In this document: positions 18,920-22,646 of the stretch, in pieces
Position numbering within the stretch: position 1 is the first letter of the stretch
Layout: each line of letters starts with the position of its first letter
NCBI GenBank assembly: GCA_023249305.1
Contig: JAHFCU010000031.1
Coordinates: forward strand, 1-32,840
DNA length: 32,840 nucleotides
From: Gemmatimonadota bacterium
Lineage (GTDB): Bacteria > Gemmatimonadota > Gemmatimonadetes > Gemmatimonadales > Gemmatimonadaceae
Direction of reading: 5' to 3'
Notes under the pieces: generated by a model
What the model saw: the letters and a program-made list of their open reading frames with translations, nothing else
The model's database searches: none
Told to the model about the DNA's origin: nothing
Position numbers and translations under genes: made by a program

Positions 18920-20452
18920 CTACTTGATCACTTCCCACGCGATGGACGCAATTTCGCCGAGCGCCTGCCCGGCGAACGTCGCGGGATCCGGTACACCGGC
19001 GAAGTTGTTCACGTAGATCGCGAAGGCAATCTGACGCCCACTCTTCGACGTGAAGTAGCCGGCGAGCCCCTTCGCGTGCACGATCGACCGCCGGTTCAGT
19101 GGATCGAACGACGAGAAAGTCCCGGTCTTCGCGTGCACCTTGCCCACCGCCGGCGCCGAAGGCTGGATGGCGGCCAACGTGCCGTCGGTGCCGAGAATCG
19201 GGAGCGCCGCCTGGAACGCCTCCGCCCACGGCTGAGCCGCGACATACTCGAGATAGCGCGTCATGAACGCCGGCGAGAAGAACGCGTCGCCGCCAGCGCC
19301 GTCTCCCTGCACGGCGCCGTCGAGATTCAGCCCTGCGGACTGCAGCCAGTCATGGGCGACGTCGAAGCCTGTTTTGCCCGCATCGCGTGCTGCCGGCCGC
19401 GCGCCGAGCACCATTGGCATCGTGCTCGCATGCAGGTTCTGGCTCGTCTTCAGGATTACACGGGACGCGGCCGCGAACGGCAGCGACACATGCTCGGCCA
19501 CCACCAGAGAATCGGCGTAGCTACGCGCGATCTGCGCATAGTCAGGAGTGCGCGAACCGAGCCGCGGAATCACGTGAATGCCGGCGTCGTTCAGCACTTC
19601 CGCGAGCACAACCTCGCCGAAGCGGCTGGGCACGGGGACGACCCAGCGCGGGTTCGTCGGAGGACCGACCGGCACTCGCCCCGAGACGACGATGGTGCGA
19701 TGGTCCTTGTCGGTGCTGTCCTCCACGGTACGCACGGCGGGCGACGTTCCTGAATCAGCCGTCGTGAGATTGGCCTGCACCGTTAGGTACGAGGTGTGCG
19801 GCGAGACGGCGACGCCCACTGGGTCACCCGCGCGCGCTCCCGGTGTCACGATGACGTCAATCACGTTGTCGTTGAGGATGAGCGGCGAGATGACCACGCG
19901 CGTGCCGAGTTCGCGCGTGCCTTCACGGAACAGCGATGCGTCCACCAGCACCTGACCCGTGGCGCCGCGGATGCCGCGGCTCGCGACCTGCTGAGCCATA
20001 TCGCGCAGCGATGTCAGCGGATCAATCGGAAGCGGTTGGCCGCCATACGAATGATCCTGGTCCACGAAGGCGTATGATCCGGCCGGGTGCTCCCACCGCG
20101 TCAGATTCGGATCGCCGGTTGCGACAAGCACGAGATCGCCCTGCACAATGCCGCTCCGCACCGGCCCGGTTCGATACACGCGCGTGCGGAACTGGTAGTC
20201 CGCCCCCAGGGTGGCAAACGCGGTGCCCGTGGTGACGATCTTCGTGGTGGAGCCCGGCACGAAGAGCCGATCACGATTGACCGCGTAGATCGTCTTCTTG
20301 GACTGGAGGTCGTAGAACTCCATGCCCCAGGTGGCGTGTGTGAACTCCGGGCGATCCATCACTTGCTGGATCCGCTTGTGCGGGGTGGGCTGGGCCGTGA
20401 GCAAGCTGGCGAACGCGAAGGCGGGGATGAGCTGGCAGAGGCGCGGCGTCAT
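18920..20452 (-). CDS. dacB: DacB/PBP4-type D-alanyl-D-alanine carboxypeptidase/endopeptidase
   Basis: Peptidase family S13 protein of 510 residues with a signal peptide (IPAFAFASLLTAQ). It trims or opens peptidoglycan cross-links in the periplasm. All three penicillin-binding motifs are present: Ser68-Thr-Thr-Lys71 (nucleophile and base), Ser336-Gln-Asn338, and Lys441-Thr-Gly443. The large insert between motifs 1 and 2 (about residues 80-330) is typical of PBP4. The usual DGSGLS block is DGAGGDAFFSPAF here. Its 5' region is the 168-base gap shared with the terminator of the cytochrome operon. Confidence 0.93.
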   Translation of the reverse strand: MTPRLCQLIPAFAFASLLTAQPTPHKRIQQVMDRPEFTHATWGMEFYDLQSKKTIYAVNRDRLFVPGSTTKIVTTGTAFATLGADYQFRTRVYRTGPVRSGIVQGDLVLVATGDPNLTRWEHPAGSYAFVDQDHSYGGQPLPIDPLTSLRDMAQQVASRGIRGATGQVLVDASLFREGTRELGTRVVISPLILNDNVIDVIVTPGARAGDPVGVAVSPHTSYLTVQANLTTADSGTSPAVRTVEDSTDKDHRTIVVSGRVPVGPPTNPRWVVPVPSRFGEVVLAEVLNDAGIHVIPRLGSRTPDYAQIARSYADSLVVAEHVSLPFAAASRVILKTSQNLHASTMPMVLGARPAARDAGKTGFDVAHDWLQSAGLNLDGAVQGDGAGGDAFFSPAFMTRYLEYVAAQPWAEAFQAALPILGTDGTLAAIQPSAPAVGKVHAKTGTFSSFDPLNRRSIVHAKGLAGYFTSKSGRQIAFAIYVNNFAGVPDPATFAGQALGEIASIAWEVIK

Positions 20453-20542
20453 TGGGTGGCCGGGTCAGGAAGTAAACGGCGCGGGCGTAGGTAACATGGT
20501 TCGCGCGGTCGCCCGCGGTGAGAGGCGGGTCCGAACGCGGCG

Positions 20543-20583
20543 AAAGAGAGAAGCCAGAATGTGCAACGGCGCACACCCTGGCT
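20543..20583 (-). terminator. Probable intrinsic terminator of the cytochrome operon
   Basis: On the minus strand AGCCAG pairs with CTGGCT (20583-20578 with 20557-20552). An inner 5-bp stem (TGTGC with GCACA) lies beyond a 2x2 internal loop. The pyrimidine-rich tract TCTCTCTTTC follows at 20551 downward. It lies 38 bases after the soluble cytochrome stop. Confidence 0.5.
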
Positions 20584-20620
20584 CCCTCATATCAGATCCG
20601 CCGAAACGGGCGCGACGACG

Positions 20621-21052
20621 TCATGGCTTGACTCTCCCTCGTGTGGCCGACCAGACGTAGGCGGCGACGATGGGCACTTCGGACTTCGCAATGCCGCCGG
20701 GGTACGCAACCATCGCCGTCCCTGGCACGCCGTGCGAAACGACGCCGATGATCGCCTTGTAGTCGCCGTTCTTCGCGTCCCGCCACGCATGCGCGAGCAG
20801 CGTGGGGGCCACTGGTCCGCCTTCGAGTTTCATGCCGTGACAGGCGAAGCACGTGCCCCTCCCATGAAAGATCGCACGGCCGGCCTCGACCATCGCCGGC
20901 GTGATGGAGCCGGTGTCGGGTTCCGCCACAGGCTGCTGTGCCGCGGCCGAGCGCGCGCTCGCCAGCGGCGCTATCGCGAACAACGCGACCGCGAGCTGCG
21001 CGACCGCGACGCAGGTCAATGCGGCGTGCGGACGCTCTAGTAGGCGAGCCAA
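20621..21052 (-). CDS. Exported monoheme class I-like cytochrome c
   Basis: Protein of 143 residues with a signal peptide (the hydrophobic core is around residues 11-35, cut near AAAQQ). One heme c site, Cys68-Phe-Ala-Cys71-His72, is followed by a likely axial Met114 in GTAMVAYPGG. It is a small periplasmic electron carrier. The start is read as TTG 21052, overlapping the end of the cytochrome-porin gene by 16 bases; no Shine-Dalgarno sequence is obvious, so expression is probably coupled to the upstream gene. In such a pair it is a natural electron acceptor from the outer-membrane cytochrome, but that is inference from position. Confidence 0.88.
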   Translation of the reverse strand: MARLLERPHAALTCVAVAQLAVALFAIAPLASARSAAAQQPVAEPDTGSITPAMVEAGRAIFHGRGTCFACHGMKLEGGPVAPTLLAHAWRDAKNGDYKAIIGVVSHGVPGTAMVAYPGGIAKSEVPIVAAYVWSATRGRVKP

Positions 21053-22434
21053 AGGAACAGGTACAGCGTGTTGTTGGCGCGGGCGTTGCGCCCGCTAACC
21101 TCGTCGTAGCTGGACGACGCACCGTTGAACCTGCTGTAGAGCGTGTACTGCGCGCCGAAGCGCGTATTCAGCCACGGGTTGTACGAGTACTCGAGCGTCG
21201 CCCCCCGCGACGTCGGGCTCCCGTTCGCACTGCCGGTCACCGACTCCGATGGATACAGCAGCGCATCCGACGACCCCGTCGTTCCGAACAAGCCGACCGT
21301 GAAGATGTGTGCCAGCGACGGGAGGTACGTGAGGTTGGCTTTGTACGCGTTCAACGAGTTGCTCAGGTTGCTCTCGGCCGGCGTGGCGGTGTGGAAAGCG
21401 GTCAAGCTCTGATTCTCCTTCACGTAGCTCGCGCGCCCGATGAGCATCCCCTTGGACGTACGCCGCTCGACCTGCGCGTCGAATCCGAGATCGCTGTAGT
21501 GATTCGTGAGGCCGCTGAAGCCGCCCGGATAGACATGCGCATCAAGGCCGAAGGAGCCCACCATCACATAGGTGTCGCCGAACGACCGTTGCAGCGCGAG
21601 ACGCCAGTACGGTGAGAGTCCGCGTGGCGTGTTGGTGGAGGTCGAGTCAGCGGGAGCTGCTGCGCCCTGCGGTGCCGACGTGTACCCGCTGACCTCGCCA
21701 TAGAGCAGGTTGTTGTACAGCGCGTAGGTGCCTACGCCGAGCACCGTCTGCGCGAGGCCGCCGTCAATCAGTGTGGACGCGACGGGATGAGGCGCCGTGC
21801 CCGCCGAGTTGAATGGGTAGCTCCAGGCCGGCAGTGTGTTCCAGACGTCCTGGACGGTCGGATTGTTATGCAGCGTCACGCCATAGAGAAGGTCCTTGTC
21901 GTGCACCATCACGTGGGAGGCATAGCGGACGTCAACATTGTCAATGCCCAATGCCTTGTCCTGTGCCGCGTACGTGAACTGGGTGAACGCGCCCATCTTG
22001 GGTGAGATCTGCGTCGCGGCAAAGAAACTGAGTTGCTGCGGGAACTCCGATGTGCCGTTGATGGTGCCCGGAATGCTCGTGGCGGTTCGCGTATGCGAAA
22101 TGATCGCCATGACCGAGAGCGGGGCAATCGGCGATAACTCGAGATTCAACCGAATGCTGTCGCCCTGGCCGTTGATCGTTGCCAGCCCGGTCATGGTATA
22201 CCCGTTCAACTTGAACAGGCGGCCGAATGCCGTGAGCTGGGGGAATCCGTTATGACAGACGCCGCAGGGAAGCTTCGTCTGGCGCGAGAAGCTGGGCACG
22301 AAGAGCTTCTTGGTCATCTTCGTGAATGCGGCGCCGGTGCGGCGCTCCGACGAGGGCGTTGGGCCCGGCTTGGCGCTGGGGACGGCATCCGCAGTGGCTG
22401 ACAGCGACAGCGCGAACAGGACGGCGACGATCAT
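21037..22434 (-). CDS. Cyc2-like fused monoheme cytochrome c-porin (outer membrane)
   Basis: Protein of 465 residues with a signal peptide and a single heme c site, Cys57-Gly-Val-Cys60-His61. The heme is preceded by FVPSFSRQTKLP (residues 45-56) and followed by FPQLTAFGRLFKLNGY. I recall the Cyc2 iron-oxidase heme motif as AxPxFARQTGxxCxxCH; PxFxRQT and CxxCH agree, while A to F, A to S and G to K differ. The remaining 390 residues are rich in alternating polar/aromatic strands and end in LYLFLWLAY, a typical last beta strand with a terminal aromatic. Cyc2 proteins have the same cytochrome-plus-barrel layout. ATG 22434 is chosen because GGAG lies 6 bases upstream; ATG 22464 is possible. The substrate is unknown. 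Confidence 0.75.
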   Translation of the reverse strand: MIVAVLFALSLSATADAVPSAKPGPTPSSERRTGAAFTKMTKKLFVPSFSRQTKLPCGVCHNGFPQLTAFGRLFKLNGYTMTGLATINGQGDSIRLNLELSPIAPLSVMAIISHTRTATSIPGTINGTSEFPQQLSFFAATQISPKMGAFTQFTYAAQDKALGIDNVDVRYASHVMVHDKDLLYGVTLHNNPTVQDVWNTLPAWSYPFNSAGTAPHPVASTLIDGGLAQTVLGVGTYALYNNLLYGEVSGYTSAPQGAAAPADSTSTNTPRGLSPYWRLALQRSFGDTYVMVGSFGLDAHVYPGGFSGLTNHYSDLGFDAQVERRTSKGMLIGRASYVKENQSLTAFHTATPAESNLSNSLNAYKANLTYLPSLAHIFTVGLFGTTGSSDALLYPSESVTGSANGSPTSRGATLEYSYNPWLNTRFGAQYTLYSRFNGASSSYDEVSGRNARANNTLYLFLWLAY

Positions 22435-22477
22435 GAGATGCTCCAGTTTTGGGGGGGCGAGCATCGAGCGTATGTGT

Positions 22478-22528
22478 ACTATAGGTGGAAGGCGCGCGCT
22501 GGCGCCACTAAGAAGCCGAAAATTCGGC
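22478..22528 (-). promoter_or_regulatory. Possible promoter region of the cytochrome operon
   Basis: On the minus strand TATAGT (22483-22478) matches the -10 consensus at five of six bases, 44 bases before the chosen start codon. No recognisable -35 box lies at the right distance. Upstream, at 22515-22528, is a 14-bp palindrome with arms GCCGAA and TTCGGC around AA, which could be a regulator site for this operon or for the divergent tRNA gene. Confidence 0.3.
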
Positions 22529-22572
22529 GGCCGCGTGGCATGTTGCAGTGGGGGCCGCTACCTTAAGTCATC

Positions 22573-22646
<74 letters not shown>

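Follow-up and report, generated by a model that had tools for sequence, protein, structure and literature searches.

The window, a complete contig of 32,840 nucleotides from a Gemmatimonadota bacterium, carries two overlapping minus-strand genes between a dacB-like gene and a tRNA gene. The first (21037..22434) encodes what the open reading frame call, a 60-row alignment, AlphaFold2 and Foldseek together indicate to be a Cyc2-like fused monoheme cytochrome-porin, a protein of 465 residues with a signal-like N terminus and a single CxxCH; an alternative ATG start at 22464 would lengthen it to 475 residues and add a lysine ahead of the hydrophobic stretch. Its heme segment, VPSFSRQTKLPCGVCHNGFPQLTA (residues 46 to 69; 22228..22299, minus strand), has the CxxCH codons at 22252-22266, and the sole CxxCH of the porin lies within VPSFSRQTKLPCGVCHNGFPQL. 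An earlier description of this DNA, made by a model from the letters alone (the sequence-only reading), had reported a signal peptide, one heme and the string PSFSRQT ahead of it; the open reading frame lies where that description placed it, with a signal-like N terminus and one CxxCH, and the string is exact.

The second gene (20621..21052, minus strand, TTG start) encodes a small cytochrome c of 143 residues with one CxxCH, a probable periplasmic electron carrier. It scores over cut-off with the Pfam models Cytochrom_C and Cytochrome_CBB3, and its nearest relatives are found in the operons of near porin relatives. The overlap of 16 bp between the two genes, also claimed earlier, is correct given the TTG start, which falls at the codon for the conserved C-terminal Trp of the porin; the next possible start, a TTG at codon 12, would give an N terminus without charge. 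An annotated plasmid relative (L132) has the identical 16-bp overlap with an ATG start, and the same overlap is found in two Bacteroidota loci (L086 and L094), where a later ATG is a likely start. Downstream of the pair, and outside the unit, lies a gene that we take from its sequence to be dacB-like (PBP4-type; 18920..20452, minus strand), while a tRNA-Arg (CCT) called by ARAGORN lies on the upstream side on the opposite strand (22573..22646, plus strand). The other neighbors are presumably an ABC transporter set, and the contig contains no oxidase or quinone complex beside the pair.

With the porin, no Pfam or NCBIfam model reached cut-off (one Pfam match, at E 0.13, is at chance level), and the same was true of three other family members and three other Cyc2-like proteins, with no model for Cyc2 coming up in these scans; comparison with PDB sequences gave no match up to E 10, whether the porin was used as a single sequence or as a profile. 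An AlphaFold2 model built with 59 relatives (mean pLDDT 79.9, pTM 0.77) is an OmpF-like barrel, in which we count 16 long strands, and Foldseek against the PDB ranks OmpT, OmpU, OmpF and similar porins at the top (best E 1.8e-9; the 50 entries listed have query TM scores of 0.31-0.46). A predicted structure lacking a barrel, which the sequence-only reading had offered as grounds for abandoning its proposal, is contradicted by both programs. The arrangement it had looked for, a barrel with the heme plugged at one end, is borne out as to the barrel and not as to the heme: the heme segment (residues 43-65) is modeled at pLDDT <50, which leaves the position of the heme with low confidence. Cyc2 is itself predicted to have 16 strands and a periplasmic plug (PMC8406198), and we infer the outer-membrane location and the heme position of the window porin. 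In the alignment of the porin with 59 relatives (60 rows), C57, C60 and H61 are invariant together with 40 other positions, and the heme site is therefore not a chance occurrence. The mean column identity is 50%, the barrel being well conserved within the clade, and, apart from the CxxCH histidine, no Met or His is retained in >70% of rows except Met109, a candidate sixth heme ligand that 55 of the 60 rows keep.

Cyc2 proteins have been delimited by a single CXXCH fused to a porin, the motif AXPXFAR[Q/K][T/Y], a PXL after the CXXCH and a length of at least 365 residues (PMC8406198). By its sequence and predicted model the window protein is a single CXXCH domain fused to a β-barrel porin; it has a PXL (CHNGFPQL) and exceeds the length, at 465 residues, while the FVPSFSRQT ahead of its heme matches five of the seven fixed positions of the motif. 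The proposed likeness to Cyc2 therefore stands for the fused monoheme architecture and falls short for the strict motif. Similar departures are common among the 94 heme-bearing open reading frames of the family (the window's included, with related genomes counted several times): 17 carry AXPXFAR[QK][TY], some full-length orthologues among them, 27 carry PXFAR[QK][TY], and 66 do so when A or S is allowed. Serine replaces alanine in 39 of the 94, Y replaces F in 18 of 20 of the remaining variants, and the PXL is found in 93 of the 94 with two to five residues allowed in between. The suggestion that the deviating heme motif may point to a donor other than iron is thus lost, as deviations that recur throughout the family are uninformative about the donor. 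A strict motif filter would also miss most of the clade (67 of the 94 lack PXFAR[QK][TY]), and surveys that use one would undercount. The name Cyc2-like, as distinct from Cyc2 proper, is used here on the strength of the architecture and the near-motif, likened through the published criteria.

Scanning genome contigs with the window protein alone gave no relatives; a 14-row alignment was needed, and with it at least 562 relatives of the porin were found in named genomes, from which 78 loci were kept. These are 44-63% identical in the best segment and come, by record title, mainly from Gemmatimonadota and Bacteroidota/Ignavibacteriota. Among 60 genomes, the porin's own included, 30 match it at E 1e-3; 13 besides its own do so at >310 bits and 16 in the N-terminal part only, two of these at contig ends. 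At E 1e-30 the porin has matches in 50 of the 395 genomes of a Gemmatimonadota sample, a few of them fragments, and in 29 of its 138 genera; within the window's genus its own genome is the only one of 11 to match at that threshold. The occurrence of Cyc2 in Gemmatimonadota is not new in print, having been reported for metagenome-assembled genomes, one in Cluster 3 (PMC9671151, PMC10367259). The window's genus also has a second Cyc2-like type (IPAFARKY), and a profile comparison with an alignment of that type joined 134 N-terminal columns (probability 98.8, E 5.4e-17), which indicates a wider distribution of the cytochrome domain and first strands. Four same-genus genomes (L020, L021, L022 and L027) have a porin of the IPAFARKY type, or close to it, with a c-type cytochrome open reading frame beside or overlapping it. 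In two same-family genomes a DoxX-family gene adjoins the cytochrome-porin (L031:7892-8311 and L032:10105-10581; Pfam was run on the L031 copy).

Nine plasmid records, all from Proteobacteria, contain relatives, whose identity to P0003, a family member from genome G039, is 33-43%. When the plasmids were searched with the heme segment, the same nine family records came back, together with six weak ones at E of at least 1. In all eight of the nine records that were examined a c-type cytochrome gene is near the porin. In seven it directly follows the porin in the gene list, on the same strand, and in Paraburkholderia it is the second gene upstream; the partner cytochrome is diheme in four of the eight, and the Caballeronia plasmid also has a HiPIP upstream of the porin. 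The plasmid relatives of Acidithiobacillus ferrooxidans YQ-N3 (L127:7890-10186) and two Acidiphilium strains (L128, L134), each with a c-type cytochrome, lie near transposase genes, and the A. multivorum porin is annotated as two pieces. A published similarity network drawn at 35% identity groups Acidithiobacillus Cyc2 with homologues from Burkholderiales, Hyphomicrobiales and Acidiphilium, among others (PMC10654088); these groups also carry plasmid relatives here, a match of groups and not of sequences.

Pairing with a small cytochrome c was counted in the 59 of the 78 loci whose porin has flanks of at least 900 bp on either side. Such an open reading frame is present within 500 bp in 37 of the 59, namely in 27 of 33 loci of the Bacteroidota group, 8 of 21 from Gemmatimonadota and 2 of 5 others (groups follow record titles, that of the Bacteroidota taking in Ignavibacteriota, Chlorobiota and two "Bacterium" records), counts in which related genomes recur and for which the search seeds included cytochromes next to porins. 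Over all 78 loci the density of cytochrome c genes falls from 0.665/kb in the 500 bp next to the porin to 0.087/kb at distances of 0.5-1 kb and 0.011-0.049/kb at 1-6 kb, a >10-fold excess near the porin over the 1-6 kb range. Among the 13 Gemmatimonadota loci without the cytochrome, six (L058, L060, L061, L062, L065 and L070) have a cupredoxin within 300 bp, identified by Pfam on the L062 copy, while 16 of all 22 loci without a nearby cytochrome c have no cupredoxin within that distance either. In three loci without a close cytochrome c (L078, L093 and L116) Rieske and cytochrome b genes follow the porin, and in L087 and L104 a cytochrome c lies 590-750 bp from it on the opposite strand. Adjacent mono- or diheme cytochrome genes are also frequent beside cyc2 in Acetobacteraceae (PMC10715153). 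A periplasmic hand-over would call for just such small redox carriers, able to replace one another at a single position. The pairing thus upholds the cytochrome c as the partner in the inward electron transfer first envisaged and leaves uptake plausible, while the direction may be either. A separate arrangement, two cytochrome-porins flanking one small cytochrome c, was found in the loci most closely related to the window pair (L049, L050, L051, L057, L064, L066 and L067) and also in L092.

The pair, with its spacers, occupies 2,120 bp between dacB and tRNA-Arg (20453..22572, unstranded). Copies of dacB 76-83% identical to that of the window are present in 5 of 10 other same-genus genomes (E 1e-40), and in those five it stands 88-212 bp from tRNA-Arg(CCT) with no pair between. 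The empty site in same-genus kin suggests that the pair is probably a gained cassette; gain in the window's lineage is the simplest account, and repeated loss is also possible. The same-genus stretches of G007 and G004 have both flanks in the same order with nothing extra, those of G001 and G002 have both flanks and extra DNA beyond the tRNA, and that of G006 has the dacB side only. Two same-genus genomes carry ~1.6 kb and 6.1 kb of extra DNA behind the same tRNA-Arg (L149:6068-7677 and L151:4705-10837), and the tRNA may thus be an insertion hotspot. The GC content of the pair bears no foreign mark (0.642 vs. 0.663). A chimeric contig was ruled out as the source of the pair, the flanking genes being 66-90% identical to same-genus genomes, and a dacB-like gene near the other Cyc2-like gene in G002 and G005 proved to be a different gene, 25-26% identical.

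A porin tree of 98 rows was made by a quick method with SH-aLRT support only; ten fragmentary or duplicated loci had been removed first, as had rows that scored <250 bits or fell outside 330-560 residues. In it the window porin falls in a 13-row set (support 99), the rest of which are porins of porin-cytochrome-porin operons; the second porin of L051, cut by the contig end, is absent from the tree. Setting the protein itself aside, six of the seven best matches of the window cytochrome likewise come from such operons, and these sequence relationships suggest that the porin and cytochrome c genes have a related history. The bin to which the window belongs comprises 2.5 Mb in 83 contigs and is 78.56% complete. 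It has four COX1-family genes above cut-off and, within that completeness, no RuBisCO match. The COX1 family also holds nitric oxide reductases, and this ambiguity and the completeness of the bin leave the metabolic picture of the host weak.

Some relatives stand in wider operons, whose subunits were identified by Pfam on one representative of each. Eight Bacteroidota loci have the complete order porin, cytochrome c, cytochrome c7, molybdopterin enzyme, FeS protein and NrfD, and three more have it incomplete at the sequence end. From its subunit make-up we take this operon to be ACIII/Qrc-like. All eight complete operons fall in one 13-row clade of the porin tree and may therefore reflect a single event. 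A literature search on Cyc2 with NrfD and Ignavibacter found nothing, a result from which we do not claim that the operon is absent from print. Rieske and cytochrome b genes follow the porin on the same strand in five loci, are divergent in three and lie upstream in two Gemmatimonadota loci. Near relatives of the window pair have FeS and NrfD genes (L049) or a molybdopterin enzyme gene (L057) upstream. In several Bacteroidota loci, such as L095:1285-2700, the porin operon is preceded by genes resembling a sigma-54 response regulator, which hints at regulated expression. In L042:10304-16898 and L046:525-7137, two different cytochrome-porin types stand beside the same four-gene operon for 8-, 16- and 18/19-heme cytochromes and a heme-free protein, in which Pfam finds c7-type and MtrC/MtrF-like domains (L042 copy).

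Collectively, these data support a conduit with a single heme in the outer membrane, from which a soluble carrier in the periplasm receives electrons, a wiring that we regard as well supported. As a whole we consider it somewhat more likely than not that the pair passes electrons from a soluble reductant, most likely Fe(II), through the porin heme and the small cytochrome c to the respiratory chain. The outer membrane would house the 16-strand barrel, whose N-terminal domain, with the single heme, would lie at the mouth that opens to the periplasm. The reductant that enters from outside would be small and soluble, Fe(II) in solution being the likeliest, or else another metal such as Mn(II), and would give one electron to the heme. 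The electron would then pass to the co-encoded cytochrome c and on to the respiratory chain, where terminal oxidases would use it for energy or a bc-type or ACIII-like complex would carry the reverse flow. As the bin has no RuBisCO match, the pair would provide an additional electron source (mixotrophy), and it was probably gained as a cassette. M. ferrooxydans Cyc2 oxidizes Fe(II) in vitro, and biochemical evidence supports iron oxidation by representative proteins from each of the three Cyc2 clusters (PMC8406198); in A. ferrooxidans, cyc2 and cyc1 form an operon (PMC10654088). By this likeness Fe(II) uptake is our best guess, and we infer donor, direction and expression. Against the conduit speak the missed strict motif, the low confidence of the heme segment and the pairing of only 8 of 21 Gemmatimonadota loci.

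Flow in the opposite direction, from the quinol pool through a bc- or ACIII-like complex and the cytochrome c to a porin heme that reduces a soluble acceptor, for example chelated Fe(III), is unlikely though not negligible: the complexes near the porin in relatives could run either way, Acidiphilium plasmids carry relatives, and one relative and one other Cyc2-like protein adjoin the 8-, 16- and 18/19-heme cytochrome operons of L042 and L046. Cyc2 and Cyc1 isoforms have also been implicated in ferric iron reduction in acidithiobacilli (PMC10715153). The iron-oxidase evidence for the three Cyc2 clusters counts against export, as do the four COX1-family genes of the bin, which point to aerobic life. 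We hold it improbable that the electrons move inward from a non-iron donor for which the barrel selects, whether Mn(II), some other metal or a reductant that is a small organic compound. Among the candidates for Mn(II) lithotrophy in Manganitrophaceae is Cyc2 (PMC9040806), many carriers have record titles that do not mark iron oxidizers, and the 50% identity of the clade, barrel included, contrasts with the low porin conservation described for Cyc2 (PMC8406198); however, that conservation may simply reflect a narrower clade, and the evidence on the donor is indirect. A heme-bearing porin with a non-respiratory role, such as oxidative defense or sensing, beside an unrelated cytochrome c would suit the 22 of 59 long-flank loci with no cytochrome c within 500 bp, but it is very improbable in view of the pairing with cytochrome c, cupredoxin or HiPIP, the operons with respiratory complexes and the arrival or retention of both genes together at an otherwise conserved locus.

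Fe(II) uptake through the porin and its cytochrome c is thus the account that we prefer for the window pair. A broader proposal is more tentative, and we would put it at somewhat short of even: that the porins form a distinct cross-phylum clade with a conserved barrel, traveling as a porin-cytochrome c or porin-cytochrome c-porin cassette and built in Bacteroidota into operons with an ACIII/Qrc-like or bc-type quinone complex, and that many presumed heterotrophs would thereby possess an outer-membrane-to-quinone route that takes electrons from dissolved metals or gives them away. If Fe(II) or Mn(II) uptake is true, many supposedly heterotrophic Gemmatimonadota and Bacteroidota would be added to the bacteria that supplement their energy by oxidizing metals. 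The operons that join porin, carrier and quinone complex would offer a whole Cyc2-type route in one construct.

Comparison with Cyc2 of A. ferrooxidans and Mariprofundus ferrooxydans reveals a shared signal-like N terminus, nearby CxxCH, PXL, 16 strands, near-identical motif and length >365 residues. However, two alanines of the strict motif are F and S in the window protein, and the barrel of its clade is better conserved than described for Cyc2 at large (PMC8406198). As in the rus operon and the Cyc2-Cyc1 pairs of Acetobacteraceae, a c-type cytochrome gene directly follows the porin gene in the window, and the partners in its relatives are mono- or diheme, some with a HiPIP or copper protein. 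In contrast to the rus operon, the window pair has no rusticyanin, cox or aa3 oxidase genes and is flanked by the dacB-like gene, tRNA-Arg and ABC transporter genes, and its cytochrome has one heme where the c4-type Cyc1 has two. The Bacteroidota operons led by porin and cytochrome, with c7, molybdopterin, FeS and NrfD subunits, recall the neutrophilic iron oxidizers that have ACIII (act) and cyc2 in one genome, although the locus tags given for Ferriphaselus put cyc2 apart from act (PMC4643136) and the window contig has no genes for such a complex. Finally, MtoAB, PioAB and MtrAB likewise pass electrons through an outer-membrane barrel, but these systems use a separate multiheme cytochrome and a 26-strand barrel (PMC10654088), whereas the window protein has one fused heme and, by prediction, 16 strands.
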